From: a virus
Direction: 5' to 3' (one strand)
DNA length: 24,262 nucleotides
Virus record (IMG/VR): IMGVR_UViG_3300036716_000142
Span: 1 to 24,262 of that record
The position numbers and the translations under genes were made by a program. Below are positions 112-24,194 of the stretch, piece by piece (position 1 is the first letter of the stretch; each line of letters opens with the position of its first letter). The notes beneath the pieces were generated by a model, which worked only from the letters and a program-made list of their open reading frames with translations, was not told where the DNA came from and searched no databases.

Positions 112-590
112 TGAAAGCAATCGTAAGAGAATCAATACTACAGGACGCTAGGGATATGGCTCCTAACTTACGCGATGCAGACTATGCAGAACTAAAGGCA
201 TCGTTAGGCGATGCACTAAACACAGAGGAAATCCTAGAGATAAGCATTGAGCATTCTGATGACCCAAGAACAGTAGAGCTTGATGGAAAGCCCATTGCTA
301 TCTTCGGTGTTGTGGACTCACACGAAACTATCCCAAGAGTGGGGTATGTGTGGATGTTAGGTACAAACAAGATTAAAGACATTAGAGGTCAGTTCCTACG
401 GAAGTGTAAGGAACAGTTAATACAACAGGAAGAGCCTTACGAAGTACTTACTAACTTTGTAGACAAACGTAACAAGGTACACATTAAGTGGCTACGTTGG
501 ATGGGCTTTACAATTATAAGAGAGGTAGAAAATTATGGAGCAGAGAAGAGAACTTTTTATGAATTTGCGAGGATTAAAGTAAATGTGTGA
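111..590 (+). CDS. Internal virion protein A-like (T7 gp13), GNAT-like fold
   Basis: 159 aa. A central part (VELDGKPIAIFGVV ... GYVWMLGTNKI) followed by a helix and a final WLRWMGFTIIRE stretch looks like a degenerate GNAT acetyltransferase fold. T7 gp13 has the same build: a substrate-like loop, a Trp-containing strand, an RGQF/RKFR-type helix and a 'contact residues then GF/GA' end. In T7, gp13 is a minor morphogenesis/internal protein. No complete acetyl-CoA loop is visible, so enzymatic activity is not implied. It starts on the TAATG junction with the gp12-like gene and overlaps the following gene by 8 bp (ATGTGTGA). Confidence 0.7.
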   Translation: MKAIVRESILQDARDMAPNLRDADYAELKASLGDALNTEEILEISIEHSDDPRTVELDGKPIAIFGVVDSHETIPRVGYVWMLGTNKIKDIRGQFLRKCKEQLIQQEEPYEVLTNFVDKRNKVHIKWLRWMGFTIIREVENYGAEKRTFYEFARIKVNV

Positions 591-7600: not shown

Positions 7601-10600
7601 TGCTGATGCGGATGCCGTGGAACCTGCAATCTTTGACACAATCAAAAAGTCGTTTGAAGCGGCTAATATTTCAAAAAGCAATATACATTGGTATATAAAG
7701 AACGTGAAGATAGCGGCTAAAAACCCTAGCTTCCATGGCGCAGCTGAACGTCCTGAGGTGAAAGATTACTTGAATGATTTGAGAAAGTCTATACCTAACT
7801 ACAGCGAACTACAGGCACAAACTGATTTCAACTCCCTAGTTAGTCTATACAAGGCGTTCCTTGAAGCTAAACTATATACTCAGAGAACACTGCACCTTAC
7901 GGAGTACGATGCCAAGCGCATCCTAGAAACTGAGGGGCTATTCATCAATCCTTTTGTGAATAAGAAAGGTACAGTACCTAAGCCTAAGCCTAGAGGAGAG
8001 TATGAATTAGCTATCCATGATATAAATCTAGTACAGCCGCAGGAGCAGATAGGTTTAACAGGCATTGACCTTCGACAGCCCATAGAAATCATGGCTGATA
8101 ACCCTCTACTTTTAGATACTTCTTCTTTAGAAGGTCTTAGTATGAAAGAGTTACGGAAGATTGCAGAGCCTCTAGGAGTTAAGGGTCGTTCTAAACTAGA
8201 CCTGACTGCTAAGATTGAGGCGGCTAGAGAAGCTGAACCTAAGCTCTATGAGCCACCAACAGACTTACGCCCCGTCCTTGTACGTCAGCAGGAAGTAGAT
8301 AACTTCCCTGAGATTGTCAATGAGACAGGGTTCGTTATAGTTACTGATGCAGTCGCGGCAGCCGCCGCAGGCGCAGGAACACCACCACCTACTGTACCAC
8401 CTACAGCCGACGGCACTACACCGCCTCCTTCTGAGCCTACTCCTGAACAGCCTATATCTCACGAAGCAACGATGGCTCTACTATCTAGAATCCCTACAGC
8501 AGGCATGATGGATATGCGAGAAGCTGCTAAGTATTCTTGGAGTTTTTCAGCTAATCTAGGTAAACCAAGCGCACCTCTAGTACTGAGGTTCTTCCACCAA
8601 GAAGCTATCAATACAAACATTGGGGGTGAGATAGATGGTAAGACAGTACCTAGTGGTTTTGGAGCTGACATGAAGGCTGATGCCTACACGAGTATTGACT
8701 TAACTAACGTAGGTGAGCTTGAGGGTGGAGCCTTTGATGAGTGGTACTTAGCCAACAAAGAACGATTCCCCTTAATTGGTGGAGATGGTGGCGTTCGTGT
8801 CAAGAGCGCACAGGAAGAGTTCTATGGTCTAGTATTTAGAGGAATAGAAGGAGAGAAGGTTACTGACCCACTTGTACAGCGGTCTATAGATGCCTTCGCT
8901 GAGGGGTATAGAGTTCAAGCTGAAGCTATCCTTGAGTCGGGGATGTCAGAGACTCTACTAAACCATGAGGGATATGCTCCCCACTTATGGAAGACAGGGA
9001 AAGTAGGTGAGAATATAACACTCTACACATTAGATAGAATGACTGAGCTTTTCAATAACGGTTTGATGGCTAAGAACCCTACCTTTACACCCCGACAATC
9101 CTTACTAATATCTAAGGCACTGCTCATTAACGTGAATACTCGGGGGTTAGATGTAGACTATGAGAGTACTAACGGTATCGGTGAAGAGAGTTATGAAGCA
9201 TTCAAGCGTAAGCTATCTGCTATCCCTAACATCACTGAAGAGGAGATTGCAAATGTAATGAAGGCTGTGGAGAAAGGTCCTAATAAACCTTCCTTCCTAC
9301 GGAACCGCACCGAGCTAGATGTATTTGCTACGATGAAGATGCGTAATGGAGTGACAGGCGAGTTAGATGATGTGTCTATTATAGATATGCTTGATACTAA
9401 TGTAAAGGCATCCTTCATTCACCACACACGCCGACTGCGTGGACAGATAGCTTACCGTGAGTTAGGAAAAGAATTCAATAAGTACAGAGGGTTATCAGCA
9501 GATGCACCTCACGCTACTTGGGATGACATGAAAGCTATACTCAAGCGGGAGCTATTAGAACGTGGCGAGAACAACGCAAAAGCACTTGAGTTATTTGAAC
9601 ACACACAGCGAGTCGTTCTTGGTATCCCGATTGACCCCGCTACATCGAGTGTGGGAGAGGCGGCACGGATGCTACAGAAGACGGCATTAGTTGCCTTCGG
9701 TACAACATTCGGTACTGCGGCATTCGCAGAGGCAGGACAAGCAATAGCTATGTCATCTATAGATTCTATGAAACGTATGGCTCCTGAAATATGGCAGGTG
9801 TTTCAAGATGTGTTTAGTGGGAAGATTCCTACAGGAGAGTTTGCCCGCGAACTTCAAGGTTGGTCGGGAATGGCACAGCCAAAGTGGGGCAGAGGCACTA
9901 ACATGAATCGGGAGTTTGACCATATCTTAGAGAACTCACAAGGCTCAGTAGAATCCTTTTTGGATTTCTTAGGGGAGAAGTCACTACAAGCAGGCGGTCT
10001 GTTTGCTATTGATACTGCTCAGAGATTTACCACAGCGATGACATTCACAGATAACTTAGTAAATGGAATCATCGAAGGAGGTATACCTTATTCGAAGATA
10101 CACCTACAGCAGATAGGATTAACTACGGACATGGCTCACCGCATCGTGCAGATGATTGTTAAGAATGGCAAACTTTACGATGCTATAGGTGGGGGTAAGA
10201 AGATAGGACGGGCGCATCCTGAGACTTGGGTGGATACAGAAGCTGCTGAGCATTTCCGTTGGTCGTTAAACAAACACACCATGAGGACTATCCATACTTC
10301 ACAGAAGGGTCAGTACCATCACAAATTCCAAGGTCAGATAGGTAGAATGTTTTGGCAGTTCCGTACCTTCATGCTTTCAGCATACGAGGGTCAGGCTGTC
10401 ACTGCTGTACAAGGCATGAAGCATGGTGATAAGAGAGCTGCTATAGCTTTAGTTACTAACTCTGTATTTGCAGGCTTATCATACATCGCCACTATCCTAG
10501 TACGCTACGGACATGACGAGGAGAAGATGAAGAAGTACTTAACTAAGGAGCAGATAATGAAAGGTATGCTCTTCAAGTCAGGGTGGTTTACACTCGGCGC

Positions 10601-10907
10601 ACCTATCACTGATACGGCGATGCAGTTACTAGGGGAGGATAAGGTATTCTCTTATGCAGGTACTCGCTCAGGCTTGGCATCAGATGCTCTTATGGGGTCA
10701 CCTTCTATAGCTATCGCAAATGCACTAGCAGGCACAGCCAAGAGTTTACTAGCTCCTGTGTTTAATCCTTCCTATCAATACAGCAAGCAGGATTGGCGTA
10801 ACATCAAAACCCTTGCTCCTCTACACGGTCTACTTGGATGGGGCAACGCATTGGATGCAGTACCTAAATGGTTAGACCTTCCTGACTCATCCACTGTTAA
10901 AGAATAA
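4614..10907 (+). CDS. Giant internal/ejection protein (T7 gp16 position) with polyvalent-type domains
   Basis: 2097 aa, against 1318 aa for T7 gp16. Residues 1-40 are Pro/Glu-rich with a repeated QNPEPE. A long hydrophobic/amphipathic stretch lies near 172-209. Residues ~870-990 look like a 'large polyvalent protein-associated' domain: a VGFEIQS motif, then IYDVAVPSYLEKYAKAL. Residues ~1170-1203 (LSMKELRKIAEPLGVKGRSK) match a SAP-type DNA-binding helix-extended-helix. Residues ~1252-1283 are an Ala/Pro linker. The last ~250 residues (GRMFWQFRTFMLSAYEG and a hydrophobic segment ~1942-1966) resemble the C-terminus of gp16-type ejection proteins. I see no transglycosylase motif in the N-terminus, unlike T7 gp16. 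The probable role is an inner-core protein ejected with the DNA; domain calls are by eye. Confidence 0.72.
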   Translation: MAIQDPQNPEPEVVPELQNPEPEQTEQEPKESKRVFQQTEDFPTFTQAAREKSFSEKEFGTTAHDKAERFEVRGFGGKLKDFAASTEELMGRAALTTITGNAYLNSQAPDFVDDAEFFRSWTPEYYAKVMTGIAEDEQPWIRDSSSEAEVQWKRESVLLRMKNEVKLAEYGFTGSAVRLLADLSDPIFLGAFAVGAKFAQAMIGAKTIVMGSKRYAQAQGRFNQVYKETMRGASAEGLAVGSRSSMPAWETQAWASQHQQAVAASWQAAHKILVQPTILERSIISGVGFGTTELARAHVNPLIHDDDVLHAIGAGMVFGAGHGVVNKIWQKFKHAPPIYTPFESSKWTRPMEPRGGGWHGSTPQRALPEPPRLLPHPDVVIPPVKPRGPLALPEPPLRLGAPAETVAPKAPVPTSADTFVGLPNGTVVKVPHASVDPRTAFKSWEVLTNLSPKTPMEEALKVLKSKGVTKNEIAFVGSGVTKEFQKMTEYVGWLNDGDYHQLSNSIMFKRLVQAYPKKAEEIVEYKHLWKEERKAMEIEADDNKLRAFKEWRKIADKLFPNRERGEVLSLNELIDTYDGGGVAFWGANPTLNPAQGGLDFSESILGKLDAAHDVYRTTVIAWKALRPSRSEIPIANKAITSRLHNRSGVAPLKLPLPKSKATVQDLINDYSVPVIDVEVYSSAIESTENLAELKALDMQLAELQRAKKDALNIFISDTDELVRAWWSDFKASLSDKEINAIGGDGKYSAPHRLTPAEVIEDNIELLKVNGYSNEAMNFVRAVQGSESFASSELKHEIVEDALEAFDYRGKVEALKGPEETQAVYDKSGTSFTGVDRTREVLLRATGDVFYLEGHFTGKKSLQLTDRGENIVSHGRWGFEVGSDKRAVGFEIQSANQNSLAVYRKEGVVARGVTSEEVEKRQMLAATWIAHTTQSMIISMVKDGARQLRFADYNEVIAKSGQSTPKEAKGRHIYDVAVPSYLEKYAKALDLNLRVRLADADAVEPAIFDTIKKSFEAANISKSNIHWYIKNVKIAAKNPSFHGAAERPEVKDYLNDLRKSIPNYSELQAQTDFNSLVSLYKAFLEAKLYTQRTLHLTEYDAKRILETEGLFINPFVNKKGTVPKPKPRGEYELAIHDINLVQPQEQIGLTGIDLRQPIEIMADNPLLLDTSSLEGLSMKELRKIAEPLGVKGRSKLDLTAKIEAAREAEPKLYEPPTDLRPVLVRQQEVDNFPEIVNETGFVIVTDAVAAAAAGAGTPPPTVPPTADGTTPPPSEPTPEQPISHEATMALLSRIPTAGMMDMREAAKYSWSFSANLGKPSAPLVLRFFHQEAINTNIGGEIDGKTVPSGFGADMKADAYTSIDLTNVGELEGGAFDEWYLANKERFPLIGGDGGVRVKSAQEEFYGLVFRGIEGEKVTDPLVQRSIDAFAEGYRVQAEAILESGMSETLLNHEGYAPHLWKTGKVGENITLYTLDRMTELFNNGLMAKNPTFTPRQSLLISKALLINVNTRGLDVDYESTNGIGEESYEAFKRKLSAIPNITEEEIANVMKAVEKGPNKPSFLRNRTELDVFATMKMRNGVTGELDDVSIIDMLDTNVKASFIHHTRRLRGQIAYRELGKEFNKYRGLSADAPHATWDDMKAILKRELLERGENNAKALELFEHTQRVVLGIPIDPATSSVGEAARMLQKTALVAFGTTFGTAAFAEAGQAIAMSSIDSMKRMAPEIWQVFQDVFSGKIPTGEFARELQGWSGMAQPKWGRGTNMNREFDHILENSQGSVESFLDFLGEKSLQAGGLFAIDTAQRFTTAMTFTDNLVNGIIEGGIPYSKIHLQQIGLTTDMAHRIVQMIVKNGKLYDAIGGGKKIGRAHPETWVDTEAAEHFRWSLNKHTMRTIHTSQKGQYHHKFQGQIGRMFWQFRTFMLSAYEGQAVTAVQGMKHGDKRAAIALVTNSVFAGLSYIATILVRYGHDEEKMKKYLTKEQIMKGMLFKSGWFTLGAPITDTAMQLLGEDKVFSYAGTRSGLASDALMGSPSIAIANALAGTAKSLLAPVFNPSYQYSKQDWRNIKTLAPLHGLLGWGNALDAVPKWLDLPDSSTVKE

Positions 10908-11119
10908 TGACAACTAACGACCAAGACTTACTCCTATCCCTCGGCAGACTTGAGGGCAAGATGGATGCTTTAATAGCTATCACCAATGCGCATAACGATA
11001 TAATTCAGCGACACGATGAGCGTCTGCGTGAACTAGAGAACTCCCGCTCTGCCCTGATAGGCGCAGTAGCTATCTTATCCACAGCAATTAGTGCCGCTGT
11101 TGCTTATCTATCCCGCTAA
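10907..11119 (+). CDS. Small coiled-coil membrane protein, holin/XhlA-like
   Basis: 70 aa. The N-terminal ~46 residues form an amphipathic heptad-like helix (LGRLEGKMDALIAITN, HDERLRELENS). A single C-terminal membrane segment follows, about residues 48-68 (ALIGAVAILSTAISAAVAYL), with a final Arg. This build is that of XhlA/hemolysin-type proteins, which assist holins in other phages. It sits between the structural block and the lysis-type genes. Start and stop are both fused to neighbours by TAATG. Membrane topology is clear from the sequence; a role in lysis is inferred from build and position. Confidence 0.6.
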   Translation: MTTNDQDLLLSLGRLEGKMDALIAITNAHNDIIQRHDERLRELENSRSALIGAVAILSTAISAAVAYLSR

Positions 11120-11613
11120 TGCCATACGATAGACACAACGATGTTAAGCTACAGCGTCAGGCTATGGCTAGTCATGCTGAACAGCGTAGCACCGCTACGA
11201 CGGTAGTGGCGCACACTACAGCGATAGCCGCTAATACAGCCGCTATTGCTGTGGCAACTCCCGCGAGCTTGAATCTAAGAGTAGCCGCCCTAGAAGCTAA
11301 GATGGAGTTCATCCCTAAAGCGTTCGGAAGGTTCACCACGGTGGCATCTCCTGCATTACTCGGTACAAGCTATAACGTAGCCTCTGTCTCTCGCGCAAGT
11401 GCAGGGCAATACGCAGTAGTGATTGATACAGACCTAACCACAGCCAACTACACAGTCCTTATCAGCTATGAGGATTCAACAGCAACTATACAGATAGCAT
11501 CTACCAACAGCCATGCCACAACAGGATTCAACATTGGTTTGAGGGATGGTTCTAACGCCTTCTCTGATGCTTCCGAGTCTGTGTCCTTTGCTATATATGA
11601 GAACAACACATAA
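11119..11613 (+). CDS. Short tail-fibre-like or head-decoration-like protein
   Basis: 164 aa. Residues ~25-47 are an Ala/Thr-rich heptad-like helix (TTVVAHTTAIAANTAAIAV), a likely trimerising coiled coil. Residues ~70-164 are strand-rich with Thr/Ser/Asn repeats (YNVASVSRASAGQYAVVIDT, TTANYTVLISYEDST, FNIGLRDGSNAFSD). This is the texture of small phage receptor-binding or fibre-tip domains. It is far too short to be a full fibre and lacks a T7 gp17-type N-terminal anchor, so it may be an accessory spike. Both ends are TAATG junctions. Function is inferred from composition only. Confidence 0.5.
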   Translation: MPYDRHNDVKLQRQAMASHAEQRSTATTVVAHTTAIAANTAAIAVATPASLNLRVAALEAKMEFIPKAFGRFTTVASPALLGTSYNVASVSRASAGQYAVVIDTDLTTANYTVLISYEDSTATIQIASTNSHATTGFNIGLRDGSNAFSDASESVSFAIYENNT

Positions 11614-11927
11614 TGAAATATCTTCTACTCTTATTGCTATTGGTGTCATGCAGTTCGCTGATGCCTAGCTTACCTAGTGTACCTTCGGTGGGTACACCTA
11701 CAGCGGTAACTACTGTGGGTCAGGTATCTAAGGATATTGAGAGTAGCCTATGGAGCTACAGTTGGATTGCAATAATCCTAACGTTTATGTTCCCCTCACT
11801 CCGCGCCCCTTTAGTATTTTTTCTAAAGAGTATATTCGGATTGCTTTCCTTATTCCCCGACCTAGCAACAAAGCACGTTAGGATGCTTTACAACAAGAAA
11901 TATAACCATGGTAAAGAAGAAGACTAA
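11613..11927 (+). CDS. Lipoprotein with a C-terminal membrane segment, Rz1-like spanin candidate
   Basis: 104 aa. It begins with a classic lipoprotein signal, MKYLLLLLLLVSC, lipobox L-V-S-C with Cys13 as the lipidated residue. A Pro/Ser-rich run follows directly (PSLPSVPSVGTP), which is typical of Rz1 outer-membrane spanin subunits. Unlike Rz1, a hydrophobic region follows at ~47-81 (SWIAIILTFMF, PLVFFLKSIFGLLSLF) and then a basic tail. It starts on TAATG and overlaps the next gene by 20 bp. A lysis role is inferred; a membrane-anchored structural lipoprotein is the alternative. Confidence 0.5.
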   Translation: MKYLLLLLLLVSCSSLMPSLPSVPSVGTPTAVTTVGQVSKDIESSLWSYSWIAIILTFMFPSLRAPLVFFLKSIFGLLSLFPDLATKHVRMLYNKKYNHGKEED

Positions 11928-12408
11928 AGACTACATCGAGCCTGAAGAGGCTATCGAAATCATAGAGAACGGTGCGCCCCATAAGGTCAAGCCCGAAGCG
12001 TCAAACGATAAGGCGGCTAAGGAAGCACAGCTACTTGGCTCTACTAAAGAGGCTATTCAACTACGCATGGCAGAGATTCGTGGTGAACTACTACTACGTA
12101 AGGCTGAGTTGCAGGGTAGGATACGGGAGATAAAAGCTACAGAAAGTGCGAAAGAAGTAGGTGGCAAGCACTTAGCAAAATTCGGAGCTTTCTATTTATG
12201 TTTACTTGTCTTGGCTTTTCTATTCTCCGTTCAGTTTACTAACGGTGAGAACCTAGCCATCGTAGCCACCTTGATTACTCTAGTGGTTACACAAATATCT
12301 TCTATACTAAAAGGTATTACCGACGTAGCTGAGAAGCGTGACCCTACTGAACTGATGCACGACATTGTGCAACAACAACTAGAGAATGACCATGAGAAAG
12401 AAAACTAA
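11908..12408 (+). CDS. Two-TM holin-like membrane protein with coiled-coil N-terminus
   Basis: 166 aa. Residues 1-90 are hydrophilic and helical (KEAIQLRMAEIRGELLLRKA), followed by two membrane segments, about 92-110 (FGAFYLCLLVLAFLFSVQF) and 115-135 (NLAIVATLITLVVTQISSIL), and a charged tail. This matches 'holin of 3TMs'-type proteins found in phages and gene transfer agents (conserved layout: long cytoplasmic helix then paired TMs). It overlaps the preceding lipoprotein gene by 20 bp and the following small lipoprotein gene by 17 bp. No clear Shine-Dalgarno precedes the ATG, so translation may be coupled. It is the best holin candidate in the window. Confidence 0.55.
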   Translation: MVKKKTKDYIEPEEAIEIIENGAPHKVKPEASNDKAAKEAQLLGSTKEAIQLRMAEIRGELLLRKAELQGRIREIKATESAKEVGGKHLAKFGAFYLCLLVLAFLFSVQFTNGENLAIVATLITLVVTQISSILKGITDVAEKRDPTELMHDIVQQQLENDHEKEN

Positions 12409-12499
12409 AATACTAATCCTTGGAGCAACGCTTACCATGCTTGCGCTTCTGTGCCTGTCCTGCGCCGCCCCTATCCCCGTGCCTATCCCAATCTTCTGA
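12392..12499 (+). CDS. 35-aa lipoprotein, minimal Rz1-like spanin candidate
   Basis: A very short ORF of 35 codons. It has a basic start (MRKKTKILIL), a hydrophobic segment, and a cysteine at residue 24 within LLCLSCAA followed by a proline-alternating end (PIPVPIPIF). That is the pattern of a processed lipoprotein with a 12-residue proline-rich mature peptide, as in the smallest Rz1 proteins. The lipobox is imperfect (Cys rather than Leu at -3). Its ATG lies inside the holin-like gene (17-bp overlap). Its 3' 87 bp overlap the convergent metallopeptidase gene on the other strand. It is the last + strand gene. Confidence 0.5.
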   Translation: MRKKTKILILGATLTMLALLCLSCAAPIPVPIPIF

Positions 12500-12805
12500 G
12501 GGGACGAACATGAGGTAATCCGTGAGCTTCGGATTGTCGATAAGTACTTGGTATAGTACTTGGCTCAGGACATAAACTTCCTGATGCGTCATCTCTAGGT
12601 ATAGGAAGTCATCAATCGCATGAACTAATTCGTGCATGACGGTGACCCTTTCCTGCACAGGTTCACACTCCCTATTGAGAGTGATGGTCATATCATTGGG
12701 GTCCCACACGCCGTAGACTTCCTCTTCAGGGTCTACGGACTTACTGTTAGAAACAATCAAGGGTATTGACACACCGAGAAGACGGATATGTGTAGGTCTA
12801 TTCAT
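12413..12805 (-). CDS. Small HExxH zinc metallopeptidase-like protein
   Basis: 130 aa from the chosen ATG at 12805, which overlaps the exonuclease stop (ATGAATAG). A longer in-frame reading to 12874 would run deep into the exonuclease gene and is not preferred. The motif VMHELVHAIDD gives His58-Glu59-x-x-His62, the zinc-binding and catalytic signature of gluzincin/ImmA-type peptidases; Glu76 (THQEVYVLSQ) is a plausible third ligand. Residues ~1-50 are strand-rich and include YGVWDPNDMTITLNRE. The last ~28 residues are basic and lie antisense to the 35-aa lipoprotein gene, so that tail may be recent. Such metallopeptidases are common uncharacterised phage accessories; the substrate is unknown. 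Confidence 0.7.
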   Translation of the reverse strand: MNRPTHIRLLGVSIPLIVSNSKSVDPEEEVYGVWDPNDMTITLNRECEPVQERVTVMHELVHAIDDFLYLEMTHQEVYVLSQVLYQVLIDNPKLTDYLMFVPSEDWDRHGDRGGAGQAQKRKHGKRCSKD

Positions 12806-13556: not shown

Positions 13557-13584
13557 ATTATAAAGTAGCGGAGTAGATTGTCAA
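13557..13584 (-). promoter_or_regulatory. Near-consensus sigma70 promoter for the exonuclease gene
   Basis: On the - strand, TTGACA (13584-13579) is followed after 16 bp by a perfect TATAAT (13562-13557). It lies in the 48-bp gap between the 79-aa gene and the exonuclease gene. The -10 box ends 12 bp before the exonuclease ATG, so a start 6-7 bp downstream of it would give a leader of about 5 nt. It is inferred to be read by host RNA polymerase. Confidence 0.75.
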
Positions 13585-13840: not shown

Positions 13841-14053
13841 TTAGTTAGTGTAAACCCATATAGGAGTATTCTCTCCTACATAAGCGTGGATGGTATTAAA
13901 CTCTAGGAACTCTAACGCTTCCTCATAGTCCATCCCATCCCTATCGTGAAGAACTTGTATAGCTTTATCTACAGAGTAGACAGCGATGTTATCTTTAGTT
14001 ATACCAAGCATCGCCTTATCAAACCCGTTTGCAATTAAAAGTTCTTCTTCCAT
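13841..14053 (-). CDS. Conserved small phage protein of unknown function
   Basis: 70 aa. The sequence DKAIQVLHDRDGMDYEEALE then FLEFNTIHAYVGENTPIWVY has the 'DxAIxxLxxRDGMxxEEAxExFEFN..GAYVGExTP' pattern of a widespread uncharacterised small phage protein family that I recognise by pattern only. It is often found near phage replication genes. It is joined to the DNA polymerase by TAATG (the polymerase TAA shares a base with this ATG), so it is probably translationally coupled. Function unknown. Confidence 0.7.
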   Translation of the reverse strand: MEEELLIANGFDKAMLGITKDNIAVYSVDKAIQVLHDRDGMDYEEALEFLEFNTIHAYVGENTPIWVYTN

Positions 14054-15987
14054 TAGTGAGTCTCAGCCCAATTGTTTCCTAGTTTATACTCACCGTCCAT
14101 CGGACAATGAATGTTGAATTGTTTCCCTGCGTGTATCATTGCTGACACAGCAAGTTGTCCAACTAGCTCTGCTTGAGATTCTTTAACCTCTAGCTGTACC
14201 TCGTCGTGGACATGGAGTACTAGTTTAGCATCTAATCCCTCCGTGTCAATAGCTTTCATTAGATTAACTGTAGCTTGCTTCATCAGGATAGCTCCTGTTG
14301 ATTGCATTAGTAGGTTCAAGGCTGAGTGTTCAGAGCGGACAGGTAACTTCCTGCCGTCTAGCCCACGCAACCACCCTCTCTTGTTAGCCACACCCTTCAC
14401 CTCTTTGATGAGAGAGCCAAGGGCAGGGATAGACTTGAGGAATCTACCTCGTAAGGCACGACCTGCCCCCTCACCACGCTCTACTATCTCACCTATCTTT
14501 GCATTACCTGCCCCATAGAGGAAGGCGTAGATGAAAGTCTTAGCTTGGTCACGGGTATCTAAACCCGCCGCCCATTGGTTGAGTGTATGTATGTCACCTG
14601 ATAGTATCTCATTAACATACTCACCTTCATCCCAATCGTGCATATAGTGAGCGAGACAGCGTAGCTCTAAGCCACTCATGTCTGCTCCCACCATCTTGTA
14701 TCCCTCACGGACGTTGAAGATAGAGCGACACGCCTCACCAAACTCAGCCCGTACCGCAGGTACTTGACTCATGTTAGGTGTGCTGTGTGTACATCTACCT
14801 GATAGCGCACCGTTGTGGTTGATGCGCCCGTGTATCCTGCCTTTCTTCTCTAACTTGAGCCATGCGTTATCGCCCTCAGCTACCTGACCTATGCGCTTGC
14901 ATAGCATCATGTATCTAGCTATCAACTCAGCTTCAGGATAGTCTAGCCCGTTCAGTATATCCTCATCGACACGGGGCTTACCTGTAGGGGAGAACTCAGT
15001 AGGTGTCCAATCATGTTTGTTGATGAATGCCTCAGCTATCTGCTGTCTGCTGTTAGGGTTGAAGTGTTTCTCCTTAGTCTTGAGAGGACCTTTAGTCAGG
15101 GCTTGCCTGATGTTGTAAGGAGCATCGGACTTGACCCGATACTTATTACCCTCAGCATCTAACCAATAGGCTACGGTCTTAGTGTCTACCGTGACGGGAG
15201 GAAACACCTTTGCAATTTCCTTCAACACTATATCCTTCTCGGTGAGGAGGTCAGCGTATAGTTTAGCGCAGGCTTCGGTATCGAAACCCACACCATTACT
15301 CTCCATCTTCAGCAGAGCAGAAGCAAACTCATGCTCTAGTACAATGCTACGGTTGCTAATCTCTAAGTCGTTAAGCTTACTCGCTAGGTGTAGGGTTACG
15401 ATTGTATCTTGTACGCAATAATCGCCCATGTCTAAAGAATACGCCGTCCAATCAGTATCCTCATGGCTGAACTCTCCCTTCAAGGAGTCTAGTCTATAAC
15501 CCCAAGCCTTGAGTGAGTGTGACCCACGATACTGTTTAGGTATCTTCTCAGCCATGTAGTCTGTATCCATCAGGTTAGGGTAAGCTAGACGAGACATCAC
15601 TAAGGTATCCCTCACCCTAGCTTGCGTCTGCCAATTAGGGTATATCTTCTTTATAGCAGGCAGGTCAAAGCCTAGTATGTTGTGACCTACGATACACTCA
15701 GCGTTAGCTAGGTGGTGTAGTGCCATTGGTACATCATCCTGTGCGAACAGAGATGTGTCACCGTTTGGTGTGGTTAGAGCGATGCAATGTATCTTAGTAC
15801 ACTCATCTAGTAATCCATCAGTCTCCATATCGAAGATGAAGGTGTCGTTTGTTTGTTCTTTTAATTGTCCCATTGTTTCTATTAGGTCAGGTCGTGGTTG
15901 GTTAAATGCCATCAAGTCCATCTTGAATGAAGGGCGAAAAGGCTGAGCATTCTCGCGTGGGTGTAGGTTGAAAGTCTCTGAACTCAT
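14053..15987 (-). CDS. Family A DNA polymerase with 3'-5' exonuclease (T7 gp5-like)
   Basis: 644 aa (T7 gp5 is 704). The replicative polymerase. Exonuclease motifs: ExoI FDMETDG (Asp53, Glu55), ExoII GHNILGFDLPA (Asn103, Asp108), ExoIII YCVQD (Tyr190, Asp194). Polymerase motifs: A, GADMSGLELRCLAHYM (Asp436); B, RDQAKTFIYAFLYGAG (Arg479, Lys483, Tyr487); C, HVHDEVQLEV (His594-Asp595-Glu596). All catalytic residues are present and motifs A and B are nearly identical to T7. ExoI lies ~45 residues further from the N-terminus than in T7. The segment matching the T7 thioredoxin-binding insertion (~255-307) is present but shorter. The start overlaps the primase-helicase stop (ATGA). Confidence 0.96.
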   Translation of the reverse strand: MSSETFNLHPRENAQPFRPSFKMDLMAFNQPRPDLIETMGQLKEQTNDTFIFDMETDGLLDECTKIHCIALTTPNGDTSLFAQDDVPMALHHLANAECIVGHNILGFDLPAIKKIYPNWQTQARVRDTLVMSRLAYPNLMDTDYMAEKIPKQYRGSHSLKAWGYRLDSLKGEFSHEDTDWTAYSLDMGDYCVQDTIVTLHLASKLNDLEISNRSIVLEHEFASALLKMESNGVGFDTEACAKLYADLLTEKDIVLKEIAKVFPPVTVDTKTVAYWLDAEGNKYRVKSDAPYNIRQALTKGPLKTKEKHFNPNSRQQIAEAFINKHDWTPTEFSPTGKPRVDEDILNGLDYPEAELIARYMMLCKRIGQVAEGDNAWLKLEKKGRIHGRINHNGALSGRCTHSTPNMSQVPAVRAEFGEACRSIFNVREGYKMVGADMSGLELRCLAHYMHDWDEGEYVNEILSGDIHTLNQWAAGLDTRDQAKTFIYAFLYGAGNAKIGEIVERGEGAGRALRGRFLKSIPALGSLIKEVKGVANKRGWLRGLDGRKLPVRSEHSALNLLMQSTGAILMKQATVNLMKAIDTEGLDAKLVLHVHDEVQLEVKESQAELVGQLAVSAMIHAGKQFNIHCPMDGEYKLGNNWAETH

Positions 15988-17621
15988 CGTGCATACATCG
16001 CTTGCTCTCTAGCTACATGAGATATGCAGTCAGTCTCTTTAAGTCTACCTGTTTCTTTAGAGTAACGCAAGGTACAGTTCACGCCTGTCTCCCCTGAGTA
16101 TCTATTCTTCAGAACTCTGACGGTAGTTACATCAGCTTCATCTTCAGATTGTTGGTCACGCTCGAAGCCTAACACTAAATCACTTAGTTGCCCAAGCGAT
16201 GCGCTACCTCTAAGCTGTGCCAAGCTAGTCTTCGCTCCCTCTTCATGAGCCTTACCTTCAGGTCTCTTGAGGTGGGATACTAAGATGAGTGCTATACCTA
16301 ACTCCTCTACAAGAGAGCGGAGCTTGGTCATGATGTTGTCGATGCGCCGACGCTCATCACCATCTTCATATCCTGATACGACAATGGAGATGTGGTCAAG
16401 GAATACATACTCTACGTCGAGAGCCTTAACCATGTACCTTATCTTACCGAGTAGGTGGTCAGAGTCCATCGAACCGAAGTGGTCATAGAGTACACAGTTA
16501 CCCGTACCCATCGTAGCTTGGAACGCATCATGTAGTTGTTCCATCCCTACATCAGTACCATGTATATGAATAGGCAGGTTGAGTGAGATACCCATGATGC
16601 CCTTAGCAGTACGCGCCACACTCTCTTCGAGTGCTATGTAGCCTACCTTCTTGTCATTGATTATCAGGTGATGTGCTATCTCTCGGCAGATGCTAGACTT
16701 GCCGATGCCTGTGCCTGACGTGAGTGTGACTAGCTCACCCTTGCGGATGCCGTAAGTCTTATCGTTCATCCCTGCCCATGGATATGGGAAGGATTCTGAA
16801 TCGTCCACCTCTGACACCTGCTCCCATAGGTCTTCACCTAAGACAACACCATCAGGTCTGAAGGGCTTAGCACCCCATTGAGCTGACACTATCTCACTAC
16901 CTCGACCTGCCACTAACATCTCGTTAGCGTCCTTCAAGGGTAGCGTAGCTATCTTAGCCTTACCTACTGAGAGCATGAGGCTACATCTCTCCGCCGCCTC
17001 GCGTCCTGCTTGGTCGTTGTCGAACATGAACACTACAGACTCGAATGTCTCTAGCCACTCAAGGCTACGAGCCACAGCTTTATGCGCACCCTGCGCACCG
17101 TTAGGTACGGACACGGTAGCCCACTTGTTGCCTGTCTGTTGGCTGACTGATAGAGCATCTATCTCTCCCTCAGTTACGGTAACCATCTTGCCACCGCTTC
17201 GCCATAGGTGTTCACCATACAGCCCCATCTTCTTGGAGTTGCCTAGTATCTGAAAGGATTTGTCAGGCATCCGTAGCTTCTGTGCTATCGGTACACCTGC
17301 ATCGTTACGGTACGTCGCTACCTGCATAGGCTTACCATGATGTAGTGTTACACCATAGTCCCATTTCTTACAGGTCTCTTCGTTTAGCCCACGGTTAGGT
17401 ATGGCTTGGTACTCTCTGTCTATTAAAGACTTAGAGACTTCGGGTTGCTTCTCGGAAGCTACTCCTGATTCTTGCTCGTGGTAACTACAGCTAAAGCAGT
17501 AGCCATGCCCGTCATCATATCTTGCAAGAGCGTCTGAGGATTCGCAACTTGGGCAGGCTTCATGTCCTGTAAAGTTACTGTCTGAATCAAGACGTGAGTT
17601 GTTGGTGTTGTTGTTGTCCAT
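15984..17621 (-). CDS. Primase-helicase (T7 gp4-like)
   Basis: 545 aa, bifunctional replication protein. The N-terminal zinc finger has Cys23, Cys26 (CPSC), Cys42 and Cys45 (CFSC), with the T7-like spacer SSD..xDGHGYC. The TOPRIM primase core shows VTEGEIDALS (Glu151) and FMFDNDQAG (Asp201, Asp203). The helicase domain has Walker A SGTGIGKSS (Lys308), the catalytic-Glu region ALEES, Walker B YVFLDH (Asp409), a GSASLGQLSD motif and an arginine-finger region NRYSGETG. The C-terminus lacks the acidic, Phe-ended tail that T7 gp4 uses to contact polymerase. The first 54 codons overlap the RusA-like gene in another frame. The ATG is preceded by AAACAAAACG, not a Shine-Dalgarno, so coupling to the upstream gene is possible. 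Confidence 0.95.
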   Translation of the reverse strand: MDNNNTNNSRLDSDSNFTGHEACPSCESSDALARYDDGHGYCFSCSYHEQESGVASEKQPEVSKSLIDREYQAIPNRGLNEETCKKWDYGVTLHHGKPMQVATYRNDAGVPIAQKLRMPDKSFQILGNSKKMGLYGEHLWRSGGKMVTVTEGEIDALSVSQQTGNKWATVSVPNGAQGAHKAVARSLEWLETFESVVFMFDNDQAGREAAERCSLMLSVGKAKIATLPLKDANEMLVAGRGSEIVSAQWGAKPFRPDGVVLGEDLWEQVSEVDDSESFPYPWAGMNDKTYGIRKGELVTLTSGTGIGKSSICREIAHHLIINDKKVGYIALEESVARTAKGIMGISLNLPIHIHGTDVGMEQLHDAFQATMGTGNCVLYDHFGSMDSDHLLGKIRYMVKALDVEYVFLDHISIVVSGYEDGDERRRIDNIMTKLRSLVEELGIALILVSHLKRPEGKAHEEGAKTSLAQLRGSASLGQLSDLVLGFERDQQSEDEADVTTVRVLKNRYSGETGVNCTLRYSKETGRLKETDCISHVAREQAMYAR

Positions 17622-18588: not shown

Positions 18589-20958
18589 CTAATGAAAGAA
18601 GTATAAGGACTTATTTAGTTTAGTGATGTCTAACATTCCTGTTGAAGGGAAAGCTAAACGTTTGTTATGGTCATCAGGATATGATTGCCTGATGTCCTTG
18701 TCAAATGAAATCAGAAGATTATTTTGAAAAGTATCAATCGCTACTTCTCGCAACCCCTCAGCTAGGGCAGGCGCATCGCAAGCGTGTGTCGCAAACGAGT
18801 CATGCACCATAGCTAAGGAGAAGATACCCTTCGACTTCATAAGATTAGTTGTCGTGAGCATGATGCTCGCGTCAAGTGAGTGGATGTAGTTAGGCACGAT
18901 AGCCTTGAAGTTATTCCTCTTCGATAAGTTATCTAGTGGGTCACGGAAGTATGCTTCCTTCCTTATCTTCGAGCCTATAGCTGTGACTACACGCCGTCTG
19001 ATTGTCTGCCTGTATCCTTGATGCACTCTCAATCCTATCGGTGTCATCCACGACACCTCGTTGTTAGCTGTGATGGCAGGTCTTATCTTTCCTTTCACCC
19101 ATGCCATCAGCTCCATTGCTCTCGGCATCATCTCGTTAATAACCTCCCATGTTTCAGAGGCTAGTCGTGCGCTGTAGTCTCGCAACCTACCACCAAACTG
19201 TAGGTCTTCACCCTCAAGGTGACGTTGGTATAGAGTCTCTTGGAACAGTTGCACCATCGTGTAATAACTAGCACCATACGGTACGCTCATCACCACCTTC
19301 TTCATCAACGCTCTGTCTATACCATACCTTAACAATCGTAAGTTATGTTTGTCGGGGTTAGATTTCAGCCGTCGAGTCACCTCGTTAGCTACGTCTTGAT
19401 AGATGTCGGCAGGTGTACGTTGTGGTACACAGTTAGTTGCGCTACCTATCTGTTCATCTCTCAACACAAGCGACATAATTTGTAGCCCGTTGTTGCTTCC
19501 GTCCATCGCACAAGGTATGTGTGATAGGAAGTTAGGATTCTCTAGCCACTCAGCAAACTCAAAGCACCACGCTAAGAATTGAAACGGCTTGTCAGCATCA
19601 GCCCAATGTAGTTGGTTCATCGGGTCTGATGCGCTCGACTTACATAGCAGTTGCATCGCTAGTATCTTCTCGACTCTCTTGCCTAGTGTACCCTTGATAC
19701 CAAACAGGTTCGCACCATGTATAAGAAACCATTTGCTACCGTCACCCTTAAAGGGTTTACCCTCAGCGAAGTGCATCAATCCCTTAGCGATGTCATCACC
19801 TTGTGGATTGAATACCTTTGGTATAGGGTAGGCTCTACCTCTAAAGTCTAAGCTGTGAGGAAAGTATATTGCATCTTCCCCTGAAAATTTCTCTGCTATT
19901 TTTAGACACTCGTTCAGTCTGAACCTACGCCCCACGTTCAAGTTGTTAGTTGCCCTCACTCGCTGTACATCTCGGAAGTGCCGTCGCTTCTCGTTAGCTG
20001 TGCAGTCGGGGTTGTACTTAGGCTCATCTAGGAAGTTGCAATTAGGTAGCCCTGCTATCGTAGCTTCTGATTCCCACAGTTCCTTCATCACCTTGAGTAG
20101 CTTAGTGTTCACCTTCCACGGCGTAGCCTGTAGTGTGTTCACCGCATCGAACACGGCAGGGCAGTCATCATAGGTGAGGTTCTCATAGTGGTTACCTTCC
20201 TTCGAGTTAATGAAACCCTTAGTCTGAAACTCGTGTAACTTGTATCCACCTGTGTAGTTATCCACCCAATCTTCAGGTGGCTCGACCATCGGCTCATACA
20301 TCATGCCCCTTAGTCCGTCTTGTCTGTAGCTTTCCTCTAGCCATTCCTTCATGTCGGGTGTAGGTGCTACCAATCCTACACGCTTACCGTTAGTAATCCT
20401 ATGGTATAACATTATCATACCTGTGTGCTTCTCCATCAACATGAGTGCAGTCATACCTATAGCGATTAAGTCTTTACGTTCCCACCACTTGTTAATGATG
20501 CCCCGTGTTCTCATCTCCTTGAGTATGTCCTGCTCTTTCTCCTGCCAATTCTTATGCTTGTTCTCTATCATTTTAGTTTGGAAGATACCACGATGTTCTT
20601 CCTTAAACTTTTGCAGTTGATACTCTAACTGTATCGCTCTGCCTATAGCACCTGCGAGTGCCGTGCGCTTACGCTTGCGACTGATGCCGTCAAGCACAGC
20701 CCTTGCTATCACCGTCGCTGTGAGTTCGGGTGTCAGCAGTCTGAAGAAAGGCTTAACTTTCTTGCCTACCCCTGCACCCTCACCGTCAAGCCAATCAACG
20801 ATACCTAAAGACAGAGGTACGATTGCTCTTGATAGCGCGATGCTACCTGTTGCAGTCGTAGTCTCTTGCTCTTTAGCTACACGTTTAGCGTTGCGCTTCG
20901 TGCGTCGAGAAGCACCCGTGATGAGTGCTTCCCGTTCTTGTTCAGTTTGCTTAGACAT
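18589..20958 (-). CDS. T7-like single-subunit DNA-directed RNA polymerase
   Basis: 789 aa from the ATG at 20958 (MSKQTEQER), which overlaps the upstream stop (ATGTCTAA). A TTG/ATG extension by 6-8 residues is open but less likely. Motifs, numbered from the chosen start: PHSLDFRGRAYP (~367-378), motif A MDGSNNGLQ (Asp486), motif B RALMKKVVMSVPYG (Lys554, Tyr561) and motif C MVHDSFATH (Asp720). The specificity-loop region is near WMTPIGLRVHQGY. All four catalytic residues match T7 RNA polymerase. At 789 aa it is shorter than T7 (883), mainly at the N-terminus. It ends SLYFFH rather than T7's FAFA. It should transcribe replication and late genes from phage promoters. Confidence 0.97.
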   Translation of the reverse strand: MSKQTEQEREALITGASRRTKRNAKRVAKEQETTTATGSIALSRAIVPLSLGIVDWLDGEGAGVGKKVKPFFRLLTPELTATVIARAVLDGISRKRKRTALAGAIGRAIQLEYQLQKFKEEHRGIFQTKMIENKHKNWQEKEQDILKEMRTRGIINKWWERKDLIAIGMTALMLMEKHTGMIMLYHRITNGKRVGLVAPTPDMKEWLEESYRQDGLRGMMYEPMVEPPEDWVDNYTGGYKLHEFQTKGFINSKEGNHYENLTYDDCPAVFDAVNTLQATPWKVNTKLLKVMKELWESEATIAGLPNCNFLDEPKYNPDCTANEKRRHFRDVQRVRATNNLNVGRRFRLNECLKIAEKFSGEDAIYFPHSLDFRGRAYPIPKVFNPQGDDIAKGLMHFAEGKPFKGDGSKWFLIHGANLFGIKGTLGKRVEKILAMQLLCKSSASDPMNQLHWADADKPFQFLAWCFEFAEWLENPNFLSHIPCAMDGSNNGLQIMSLVLRDEQIGSATNCVPQRTPADIYQDVANEVTRRLKSNPDKHNLRLLRYGIDRALMKKVVMSVPYGASYYTMVQLFQETLYQRHLEGEDLQFGGRLRDYSARLASETWEVINEMMPRAMELMAWVKGKIRPAITANNEVSWMTPIGLRVHQGYRQTIRRRVVTAIGSKIRKEAYFRDPLDNLSKRNNFKAIVPNYIHSLDASIMLTTTNLMKSKGIFSLAMVHDSFATHACDAPALAEGLREVAIDTFQNNLLISFDKDIRQSYPDDHNKRLAFPSTGMLDITKLNKSLYFFH

Positions 20959-21295
20959 TTGATGTATTCCAAACATGAGCAATCTCTGTGCGCATCATGC
21001 GTCCTAACGTCGATAGCTGTACTAGCTTGCGACGCTTATCCGCAGGGTCGATGACACATTGAATTAAACCTGCACACTCACCGCCTCGTGGGTGGTCATC
21101 ATCTGAACCTAGCAATCGTAGGTATCGTATGATTGAGCCGTGACTAACACCCACCATATCCATCAGCTCTTTAACAAGCAAAGGGTTAGGGTCGTGTTCC
21201 ATAACGTGCAGTAGTAGCGAGACACCTTGAGTCTCCAAGTCTCCACCTGCATACCGACGCATGATGTCGAAGGTCTTAGTTAGATTCTGCATCAT
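20951..21295 (-). CDS. MarR-like winged-helix DNA-binding protein
   Basis: 114 aa. The central LLVKELMDMVGVSHGSIIRY is a helix-turn-helix with a recognition helix SHGSIIRYLRLL. It is followed by a wing with the MarR-style basic hairpin DPADKRRKLVQLS and a closing helix (TLGRMMRTEIAHVW). It resembles a minimal MarR/ArsR-type winged helix without long dimerisation arms. It lies directly upstream of the RNA polymerase gene with an 8-bp overlap, and follows the transglycosylase by TAATG. It may control the early promoters or modify host transcription. Inverted repeats near both right-hand promoters are candidate sites; no direct evidence links them. Confidence 0.7.
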   Translation of the reverse strand: MMQNLTKTFDIMRRYAGGDLETQGVSLLLHVMEHDPNPLLVKELMDMVGVSHGSIIRYLRLLGSDDDHPRGGECAGLIQCVIDPADKRRKLVQLSTLGRMMRTEIAHVWNTSNV

Positions 21296-22481: not shown

Positions 22482-22699
22482 GATGCGTTCTCCTGTCGTG
22501 CTAAGACTTGAGAATACAGTTGGCTTGGTGCTAGACCGCACAAATCTACGATGGCGAAATTGTGCATCAGCAGTAGGCGTTTCATCACTACCTCCTTCGG
22601 CATCTTATCCTCTGCCATAGCTGTGATAAATTCACACCACATCTGTAGTAGGGTATCCTTGTCGGGGTTAGCCTTAAATTCTAGGTAGGTGTTAGTCAT
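22478..22699 (-). CDS. Small helical early protein of unknown function
   Basis: 73 aa from the ATG at 22699 (MTNTYLEF), chosen because GGAGGT lies just upstream; an 8-residue TTG extension is open but unlikely. Mostly helical: DTLLQMWCEFITAMAEDKMP and KEVVMKRLLLMHNFAIVDL. No recognised family. It overlaps the 20-aa leader ORF by 8 bp (ATGACTAA) and the next gene by 4 bp (GTGA), so the set is probably translationally coupled. Confidence 0.6.
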   Translation of the reverse strand: MTNTYLEFKANPDKDTLLQMWCEFITAMAEDKMPKEVVMKRLLLMHNFAIVDLCGLAPSQLYSQVLARQENAS

Positions 22700-22754
22700 T
22701 ACTCCACCTCCGTGATGTTGCAATACTCTGCGGTTTTGTTTCTAGGTTTGACAT
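22692..22754 (-). CDS. 20-aa leader ORF
   Basis: ATG at 22754 is placed 5 nt after CAGGAGAT, the best Shine-Dalgarno of the second early leader, and directly follows the GNRA hairpin element. It encodes MSNLETKPQSIATSRRWSND and ends in TAA overlapping the next ATG by 8 bp. It is the first reading frame on this transcript. Either it is a short translated peptide whose termination feeds the 73-aa gene, or the remnant of a gene that once stood behind the duplicated leader. Confidence 0.45.
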   Translation of the reverse strand: MSNLETKPQSIATSRRWSND

Positions 22755-22780
22755 TTTATCTCCTGTCTTCCGACGGTTAG
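22755..22780 (-). promoter_or_regulatory. Leader hairpin element, copy B (GNRA loop before ribosome site)
   Basis: Read on the - strand: CTAACC, then GTC-GGAA-GAC, then A, then GGAGATAAA. The stem is CC-GTC paired with GAC-(A)-GG, with loop GGAA (GNRA) at 22776-22762. It ends in the Shine-Dalgarno of the 20-aa ORF. It matches 23 of 26 positions of the copy at 24100-24125. Confidence 0.65.
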
Positions 22781-22817
22781 AGTAAGAGAGTGTCACCTCT
22801 CGTGGTTTGTTTGTAGT

Positions 22818-22845
22818 ATCTTAACATATCCTTAGGCTTTGTCAA
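22818..22845 (-). promoter_or_regulatory. Second early sigma70 promoter
   Basis: On the - strand, TTGACA (22845-22840), 16-bp spacer, TAAGAT (22823-22818). It is preceded by a very A/T-rich stretch (about 22850-22885) that could be an UP element. It should drive the small early genes, transglycosylase, winged-helix protein and RNA polymerase. Between it and the leader hairpin is GAGAG-GTGACA-CTCTC, a 5-bp stem. That stem contains AGGTGACACT, which equals the core of the SP6 phage promoter. Confidence 0.75.
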
Positions 22846-22861
22846 GAAGAAAAGACATAAA

Positions 22862-22882
22862 AAGAATTATTAAATAGTTCTT
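22862..22882. repeat. 21-bp imperfect dyad upstream of the second early promoter
   Basis: AAGAATTAT and ATAGTTCTT are inverted arms around a TAA centre; only one position is not Watson-Crick paired. It ends 17 bp upstream of the -35 box. Possible operator for the winged-helix protein, or a weak hairpin followed by TTTTT on the - strand. Confidence 0.4.
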
Positions 22883-22938
22883 GATTATCTTCAAGGCATC
22901 TTTACGATGGGGTTCGTGGTGGCTTTTACCAAGAGGAA

Positions 22939-22965
22939 GAAGGGTAAGTGAAAGACCTACCCTTC
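22939..22965 (-). terminator. Terminator-like hairpin after the 371-aa early gene
   Basis: Perfect 8-bp stem GAAGGGTA / TACCCTTC with an 11-nt loop, starting 15 bp after the stop of the 371-aa gene. On the - strand it is followed by TTCCTCTT, a pyrimidine-rich but imperfect T-tract. It separates the first early unit from the second promoter. The 257-bp gap between the 371-aa gene and the 20-aa ORF is accounted for by this hairpin, an A/T-rich dyad, the promoter and the leader element. Confidence 0.55.
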
Positions 22966-22980
22966 GGTTCTCTTTAGTAG

Positions 22981-24096
22981 TTACGACACCTCCTTATTTT
23001 CTATCTGCTTGATAGCCCCTTCTCTGAAGGACTCAACGGTGATTGACTTGGCTTCTTCTAGGTAGGCTAGGTTAGCTTCGTAGTGCATCTTGCCTATCTC
23101 GGCATCGAGTACAGCTAACTCTGCTAGTACAGGTCTGACCTTACGCATCAACTTAATCCCAAGCTGTTGCATATCAACGATAGCTTTACCTATACGCTCT
23201 CCCTCGTCGGTAGTACCAACGTCTATGGTGTAAGGCTTATCGCTGTACCCACTATCAGAATTGATAACTACCTTCACCTCTGATTCCCACTCGTCTATAG
23301 GGTTCATCTCTGTAAGGTTCTCAGTACACTCGTCAATGGATTCTCTCCACTCACGGCTACTGTCGTTAAAGACTCCACAAAAGATACTGCCTGTCTGTAG
23401 TTTCAATAGGCTTTTCTTCCTATCGTATCTTCCTTCAGTAACAATACCGTACTTGTTATTTATTAACTTGCGGTGTTCGTCAAACTCCGTAGCTAAGGTA
23501 GAGGCTAGTTCACTACTAAAGCTTTGATAGTAATTATTATTTCTGTACTGTATGGTTTCCCGAAGGTCATCAAAACTTTTCTGAAAAATCTCAATGCCGT
23601 CAGCATCTAGCTTATCAATATAAGACTGCTTCAGTTTGCGTAGCTTGCTTTTGTGATTATACTTAGCCGTGTCATTGATTCTTTTCTCGTGCTTAGTATT
23701 TACTCTAGCCTTCATAGCTGTAGCAAATCCTAGATACTTTGTGATGCCTTCTGAATCAAGACCCCACTCAGTTATAGCTGTGGCTAAGTTCGTAGCTAAC
23801 AGCGCATCTACCTTAGCCATGCCTTCGGTAGTGATACCTTCAGCAGAGGCTTCGCTAGTGCATATACCAAACCGTAAGGTGTAGTTACCTTTAGCTGTTT
23901 CCCCCATAAAGAAACAAGCGTTGTCTAGTTCCTCGAAGTTTTTCCATGTCTCCGTCTTGTAAGACCATCGAGCGTCGGCGCGGTGAAACTCGACGTGGTA
24001 GTCTGTTGATGTTAAAGTGTCAAGCATAGATACGATAGCCTGCGCTACGTTCTTATGCTTAGCCTTTAGTGAGTATGTAATTTCAAATCGTTGCAT
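22981..24096 (-). CDS. 371-aa early protein of unknown function
   Basis: The first complete gene of the - strand unit, driven by the right-hand promoter and bearing leader copy A. The ATG follows CAGGAGATAAACAA. Residues 1-125 look alpha/beta (MQRFEITYSLKAKHKN, YTLRFGICTSE). Residues 129-157 are Lys/Arg-rich (KARVNTKHEKRINDT, HKSKLRKLKQSYI), and the middle is helical (FSSELASTLATEFDEHRKL). Residues 270-300 are strand-like and acidic. The end is a long helix (LAELAVLDAEIGKMHYEANL). No recognised family or catalytic motif. Its early position suggests a host-takeover or anti-defence role, but that is inference only. Confidence 0.75.
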   Translation of the reverse strand: MQRFEITYSLKAKHKNVAQAIVSMLDTLTSTDYHVEFHRADARWSYKTETWKNFEELDNACFFMGETAKGNYTLRFGICTSEASAEGITTEGMAKVDALLATNLATAITEWGLDSEGITKYLGFATAMKARVNTKHEKRINDTAKYNHKSKLRKLKQSYIDKLDADGIEIFQKSFDDLRETIQYRNNNYYQSFSSELASTLATEFDEHRKLINNKYGIVTEGRYDRKKSLLKLQTGSIFCGVFNDSSREWRESIDECTENLTEMNPIDEWESEVKVVINSDSGYSDKPYTIDVGTTDEGERIGKAIVDMQQLGIKLMRKVRPVLAELAVLDAEIGKMHYEANLAYLEEAKSITVESFREGAIKQIENKEVS

Positions 24097-24099
24097 TTG

Positions 24100-24125
24100 T
24101 TTATCTCCTGCCTTACGGCGGTTAG
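24100..24125 (-). promoter_or_regulatory. Leader hairpin element, copy A (GNRA loop before ribosome site)
   Basis: Read on the - strand: CTAACC, GCC-GTAA-GGC, A, GGAGATAAA. Stem CC-GCC / GGC-(A)-GG with a GTAA (GNRA) loop at 24121-24107. It abuts the Shine-Dalgarno of the 371-aa gene. Compared with copy B, a C-G pair replaces T-A and the loop stays GNRA. Confidence 0.65.
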
Positions 24126-24140
24126 TGAATAGGAAGTTAC

Positions 24141-24163
24141 GTTCTCCCTTAAAGTGTGAGAGC
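24141..24163 (-). promoter_or_regulatory. Candidate phage RNA polymerase promoter (T3/T7-like core)
   Basis: On the - strand this reads ...CTCACACTTTAAGGGAGAAC. CACTTTAAGGGAGA differs from the T3 promoter core CACTAAAGGGAGA by one extra base and one substitution, and AGGGAGA equals the T7/T3 initial transcribed sequence. It lies between a sigma70 promoter and the leader hairpin. Only one such copy was found, so specificity for this polymerase is unproven. Confidence 0.35.
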
Positions 24164-24165
24164 TA

Positions 24166-24194
24166 AGCTTAGCCTAGCCCTCGTTGTTTGTCAA
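24166..24194 (-). promoter_or_regulatory. First early sigma70 promoter
   Basis: On the - strand, TTGACA (24194-24189), 17-bp spacer, TAAGCT (24171-24166). It drives the 371-aa gene about 70 bp downstream. All three sigma70 promoters here share the wider -35 context YCTTGACAA. Confidence 0.7.

Follow-up and report, generated by a model that had tools for sequence, protein, structure and literature searches.

The window analyzed here is a virus fragment of 24,262 bases. Its plus-strand genes (1-12408) look structural by their size and order. The minus strand encodes a single-subunit RNA polymerase at 18589-20982 (Pfam RNA_pol, 3e-77; PHROG 'RNA polymerase'), just preceded by the gene for a MarR-like (winged-helix) regulator (20951-21295), and also carries a 5'-3' exonuclease gene. 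The ORFs at 15984-17621 and 14053-15987 correspond, judged by order and similarity, to the primase/helicase and DNA polymerase of related phages. A perfect sigma70 promoter (TTGACA-16-TATAAT, 12 of 12 positions, 13557-13584, minus strand) lies before the exonuclease gene, hinting that host RNA polymerase may be used beyond the early region. Among annotated phages, those nearest to the window are Autographiviridae that infect rhizobia and Pelagibacter; their RNA polymerases are approximately 32% identical to that of the window. Close relatives were found solely among uncultured contigs (L006, L007, L008, L009, and L010), where RNA polymerase identity is 79-98%. Records G002 and G003 contain L007 and L008, L009 is G004 (39.8 kb), and L010 is G005 (39.1 kb); four distinct phages, i.e., the window, G002/G003, G004, and G005, entered the leader comparison. 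The sequence of the nearest further relative, L046 (75% DNA polymerase identity), stops before the early region. The contig ends of G005 (L037/L038) have structural-operon leader sequence in common, which points to terminal repeats or to an assembly that is circular and complete.

Upstream of the regulator and RNA polymerase genes are two transcription units, presumed to be early from their sigma70-like promoters and their position before the polymerase gene. Their features, in the direction of transcription, are as follows:

24166-24194, minus strand: predicted sigma70-like promoter A, TTGACA (24194-24189), 17-nt spacer, TAAGCT (24171-24166), a weak -10 box
24131-24149, minus strand: leader A hairpin 1, AGGGAG-AACGUAA-CUUCCU (MFE fold)
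24100-24125, minus strand: copy A of the repeated element, CTAACCGCCGTAAGGCAGGAGATAAA (24125-24100), with predicted hairpin core CCGCC GUAA GGC A GG at 24107-24121 and Shine-Dalgarno (SD) sequence AGGAG at 24105-24109
22981-24096, minus strand: ORF driven by leader A, 371 aa, with no relation to the ORF of 268-270 aa that G003, G004, and G005 carry in this slot
22939-22965, minus strand: terminator-like hairpin closing operon A, GAAGGGUAGGU-CUUUC-ACUUACCCUUC, 11-bp stem, flanks AAGAG/CUCUU
22846-22938, minus strand: conserved noncoding block from the terminator to promoter B, with small hairpins CAUC-GUAAA-GAUG and CUUGA-AGAUAA-UCAAG
22818-22845, minus strand: predicted sigma70-like promoter B, TTGACA-16-TAAGAT, extended -10 TG, 10/12 matches
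22786-22801, minus strand: leader B hairpin 1, GAGAG-GUGACA-CUCUC
22755-22780, minus strand: copy B of the repeated element, CTAACCGTCGGAAGACAGGAGATAAA (22780-22755), with predicted hairpin core CCGUC GGAA GAC A GG at 22762-22776 and SD AGGAG at 22760-22764
22692-22754, minus strand: ORF directly behind leader B, 20 codons, MSNLETKPQSIATSRRWSND, overlapping the next start codon

Predicted folds give the two leaders a common plan: hairpin 1 with a 5-6-bp stem, a single-stranded spacer of 9 nt ending in CUAA, hairpin 2 (the repeated element), the SD, and ATG. This plan is found in both leaders of all relatives, except for leader A of G002/G003, and is shared by leaders A and B despite the different sequences of their first hairpins. 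Hairpin 1 of leader A is identical in G004 and G005, and the G002/G003 version is one pair longer with a different loop. The stem of leader B hairpin 1 is invariant in all relatives, while its loop varies in sequence and length. Promoter A is in the same register as promoter C of the relatives (TTGACA-17-TATACT), a third promoter of the same type that lies upstream and has a different leader. The 5' arm of the terminator-like hairpin is invariant in the four phages, and promoter B and the noncoding block, taken together, are 90-96% identical. Across phages that diverge by as much as 20% in their coding DNA, the noncoding DNA at 22846-22978 of the window hardly changes; it could be a terminator/promoter joint, a small RNA, or an origin.

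The preliminary description reported that the two copies differ at 3 of 26 positions, and reading both strands showed this to be exact. Two of the differences form a single base pair, C-G in copy A and U-A in copy B, as had been claimed, and the third falls in the tetraloop (GUAA in copy A, GGAA in copy B). A good SD and then an ATG stand directly downstream of each copy, at 24096-24094 for the 371-aa ORF and at 22754-22752 for the 20-codon ORF, in agreement with the proposed adjacency to ribosome sites. The window contains one direct pair of 26-nt stretches with at least 23 matches, and none was obtained in 60 dinucleotide shuffles. When three substitutions were placed at random, all five pairs were kept and a compensatory change was included in 1.5% of trials. 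The repeat is therefore real. Chance could have produced the paired change, but this is unlikely.

The hairpin was also suggested to be extended by pairing with two G residues of the SD, and to act as a translation switch. Those pairs are predicted, but only partly populated in the ensemble (pair probability 0.29-0.81); a further extension of the stem is possible in the B copies and mismatched in the A copies. In isolation, hairpin 2 has a predicted stability of -4.1 to -6.4 kcal/mol; 15 of 52 ribosome sites in these phages equal or surpass it in folding. Ribosomes open structures of such strength during translation initiation. A strong off-switch is thus unlikely, given a weak hairpin of ordinary stability for these phages and partly formed pairs at the SD. 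Processing by an RNase, at sites like the early RNase III sites of T7, would suit an early-leader position in a T7-like phage. RNase III cuts long duplexes, and the stems here, 3+2 bp with a bulge in hairpin 2 and 5-6 bp in hairpin 1, are far shorter than its sites; nearby, a long stem is present only in the terminator-like hairpin. The processing site that had been put forward is accordingly the least credible of the explanations, and we consider it extremely unlikely.

The absence of any similar element from relatives, which would have counted against the element, did not occur: homologous copies are present in the related phages. The stem of leader B, GUC/GAC, is unchanged in all four distinct phages, whereas the loop reads GGAA in the window and G005, GAAA in G004, and AUCAA in G002/G003. 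The GNRA loop noted in the preliminary description (GUAA and GGAA) therefore holds within the window but is not strictly kept, one B copy having a loop of 5 nt. The leader A element is identical in the window, G004, and G005. In leader A of G002/G003, the hairpin is deleted and only the SD is kept, with CUAAC joined straight onto AUAAGGAG; the hairpin is therefore dispensable there. Selection on the stem as RNA, which had been claimed outright, is plausible: wherever a relative has the element, its stem is retained even though the loop varies. The deletion in G002/G003 counts against it.

The change from C-G to U-A distinguishes the A copies from the B copies just once; it is not covariation that recurs within either set. 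When the B leaders were folded together, a second compensatory pair emerged in G005, where ACUCU...GGAGAU is replaced by ACACU...GGAGUU, i.e., U-A by A-U. It sits in the stem extension that covers the SD, at a position that is an A.A mismatch in the A copies. For the extended stem, in six distinct sequences, 18 of 500 letter shuffles reached the covariation score, and 157 of 500 matched the observed number of changed pairs; controls in which the pairing partner was slid gave at most one pair changed on both sides, against two observed. With the core stem alone, 89 of 500 shuffles equaled the observed covariation. Overall, the covariation is suggestive but not significant.

Paired changes that preserve an RNA stem preserve a DNA dyad too, and the inverted repeat might instead be an operator that binds a dimeric regulator and roadblocks both early promoters. 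A candidate for that regulator is the MarR-like protein encoded just before the RNA polymerase, and the copies lie approximately 40-45 nt downstream of the promoter -10 boxes. However, the one-sided bulged A makes the dyad asymmetric, and the change of loop length from 4 to 5 in G002/G003 alters half-site spacing. The copies are also fixed in position against the SD, and one leader is without the element. The asymmetric bulge and the changing loop length in particular make a DNA operator possible but disfavored, and we rate it as very unlikely.

The genes behind the leaders are far less constant than the leaders themselves. Promoter A and leader A are 99.1% identical between the window and G004, whereas the RNA polymerase genes are 78.9% identical at the DNA level. 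Identity with the relatives ends at the start codon, and resumes at the end of the operon with the terminator-like hairpin and the noncoding block. No family above cut-off in Pfam or PHROGs was found for the 371-aa ORF that replaces the smaller protein of the relatives. L001 was considered as a relative of this ORF and rejected as a spurious short match in a structural-type gene. Behind leader B, the relatives have genes of 74, 93, and 99 aa, and the 20-codon ORF is apparently the remnant of such a 74-99-aa gene, deleted in the window. Since both leaders carry different genes in different phages, the conserved unit is the expression cassette and not the gene, and gene-specific feedback is disfavored. 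The earlier proposal that the element co-regulates the two early transcripts is not supported as far as particular genes are concerned: with the cargo exchanged, any co-regulation would concern the expression slot.

Alternatively, the hairpin may have no function of its own. The copies would be paralogous or recombined ribosome sites, kept alike because promoters, SDs, and the sequences beside them act as recombination joints in the exchange of early genes, and their pairing would be incidental. The boundaries of identity at start codon and operon end are consistent with such joints, as are the loss of the hairpin from leader A of G002/G003, a stability that is not unusual, and covariation shuffles that are not decisive. 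What this explanation leaves unaccounted for is a leader B stem that stays constant across three loop forms, one with a change of length, together with two stem differences between the copies that pair up and the second compensatory pair in G005. We judge incidental pairing to be rather unlikely.

A regulated RNA switch or operator, in which a phage or host protein, or pairing of the pyrimidine 3' arm of hairpin 1 with the SD, would toggle both leaders, has a similarly low standing. It is the extended stem covering the SD that gains the compensatory pair in G005. SD pairing (CUCU:GGAG) is predicted even in leader A of G002/G003, where the hairpin is deleted, which speaks for such a switch; one predicted fold of G004 leader B likewise pairs the hairpin-1 3' arm with the SD. 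There is precedent in T4, where gp43 binds a small hairpin close to the ribosome site of its own gene (PMC3014915). Against this, the structures are weak, a pyrimidine-rich arm can easily complement a purine-rich SD by accident, the swapped cargo counts against autogenous control, and any effector is hypothetical. The loop, as GUAA, GGAA, GAAA, or AUCAA, varies unlike most hairpin sites for proteins and lacks gp43-type conservation, which argues against the protein-binding site that had been suggested. A specific version of the switch would be a two-state device in which an SD-like purine arm of hairpin 1 is paired with an anti-SD pyrimidine arm. Were hairpin 1 to open, the anti-SD arm could pair with the SD and shut off translation, and any inserted gene would acquire the same timing. 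We regard this version as a long shot.

The explanation that we prefer, although we put it at only about an even chance, is a generic leader with two hairpins, within a modular cassette for early expression that resembles the promoter-early stem-loops (PeSLs) of T4; the leader would tune translation or mRNA stability. The two copies would be the hairpin nearest the ribosome site in a standard 5' leader, used twice by the phages of a small T7-like clade, with each leader following a host-type (sigma70) promoter. The promoters and leaders would be conserved modules behind which early genes are exchanged, and the leader would then most likely do a generic job for any gene. It may protect early mRNA at the 5' end, and may keep the SD within a structure weak enough to open easily, so that translation proceeds at a moderate, reproducible rate. 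From the sequence and its predicted folds, we infer early transcription from these promoters, formation of the hairpins in the cell, and any effect on translation or decay. The comparison comprises few distinct sequences with just two covarying pairs, and recent recombination or DNA-level selection on the promoter and SD could also lie behind the conservation.

PeSLs reportedly join a sigma70-like early promoter to a terminator hairpin. The likeness to the generic two-hairpin leader consists of conserved cassettes of sigma70-like early promoter and stem-loop, between which nonessential early genes are exchanged. Host-type promoter sequences (TTGACA-16-TAAGAT and TTGACA-17-TAAGCT) are present here; the terminator-like hairpin is adjacent to a promoter, approximately 95 nt upstream of promoter B; and at the borders of the cassettes, relatives differ in the genes they carry, the ORF behind leader A being unrelated and that behind leader B variable. 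No comparable terminator hairpin was identified for cassette A within the window. Unlike the PeSL phages, this is a T7-like phage with its own RNA polymerase and only two or three cassettes, and the hairpin that its leaders share is not the terminator but lies at the SD, within the 5' leader. A 5' leader of the T7 gene 10 type has one 5'-terminal hairpin, made from a phage RNA polymerase promoter, and a strong SD. The leaders described here resemble it in that a short 5' hairpin precedes an A-rich SD region (GGGAG...CUUCC, AGGAGAUAAACAAAUG), but differ in their host-type promoters and the second hairpin at the SD.

PeSL cassettes of T4-type phages mediate gene shuffling between related phages (PMC4503421 and references therein). 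The leaders of T4 gene e, I-TevI, and Aeh1 mobE have hairpins that sequester the SD, and the gene e hairpin is strongly inhibitory, approximately 100-fold, and is absent from late transcripts (PMC3014915). The element shares with these, in its predicted fold, a leader hairpin with the SD in its 3' arm; in contrast to their strong inhibitory structures, its stem is weak and lies behind early promoters. The T4/RB69 gene 43 operator is also a small leader hairpin near the ribosome site, with stem and loop compared across phages (PMC3014915). Binding there depends on bases of the loop, and the operator is bound by the product of its own gene (PMC3014915), whereas the present element has a variable loop and stands before different gene products in different phages. 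If the modular-leader explanation is right, the idea of mobile early-gene cassettes extends from T4-like phages to a T7-like lineage, and the unit that is kept comprises, besides the promoter, a structured leader reaching to the start codon. 'Plug-in' leaders of this kind would mark the sites where phages load new early genes, and could therefore be used to find such genes; the hairpin by itself is a modest regulatory detail.

The distribution of the element is narrow. Pattern scans of 2.9 million viral contigs found it only in this clade, although the scans were not fully exhaustive, one having missed the known G005 copy. A degenerate pattern matched 26 viral stretches, and outside the clade one of these kept the pairing and none had the context. 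A covariance-model search, which had been recommended as a source of further copies, returned only those of the clade from 1.1 Mb of T7-like relatives, a sample including approximately 79 loci found by DNA polymerase similarity; the next best hit (E 0.046) had a broken stem. The exact pattern had no match in 84,980 bacterial and archaeal genomes, and the leader region had no significant relative in annotated phages. Rfam gave no match at the gathering threshold, and a permissive search gave only chance-level hits, on the other strand, with E>3. Identity as a phage RNA polymerase promoter was considered and rejected: the element is confined to the two leaders and stands nowhere before late genes in these genomes, and is therefore not a general promoter of that polymerase.

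Other noncoding features were observed in these genomes. The motif AAGTGTTTAGCCCTTTACGAAGGATAACTC, with a possible hairpin CCUU-UACG-AAGG, is conserved before the structural-gene operon in one copy per genome (L036:1527, L039:5682, and L037:62), and is a candidate late leader or phage promoter. In G003 (L039, approximately 11950-12500), the noncoding region upstream of the early genes contains TTTGCAAYATCCTA-type repeats. A noncoding region of approximately 450 nt is found in G003 and G004 (L039:13065-13560, plus strand, and L035:14070-14480, minus strand), at a location beyond the right end of the window. A sigma70-like promoter sequence precedes it, and the early promoters follow it. No Rfam match was found for it at E<=1. 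The two sequences are 87% identical, with an MFE z-score of -3.5 and four pairs with compensatory changes, albeit from just these two sequences. The region may be a large structured phage RNA, and as such a better lead than the hairpin.
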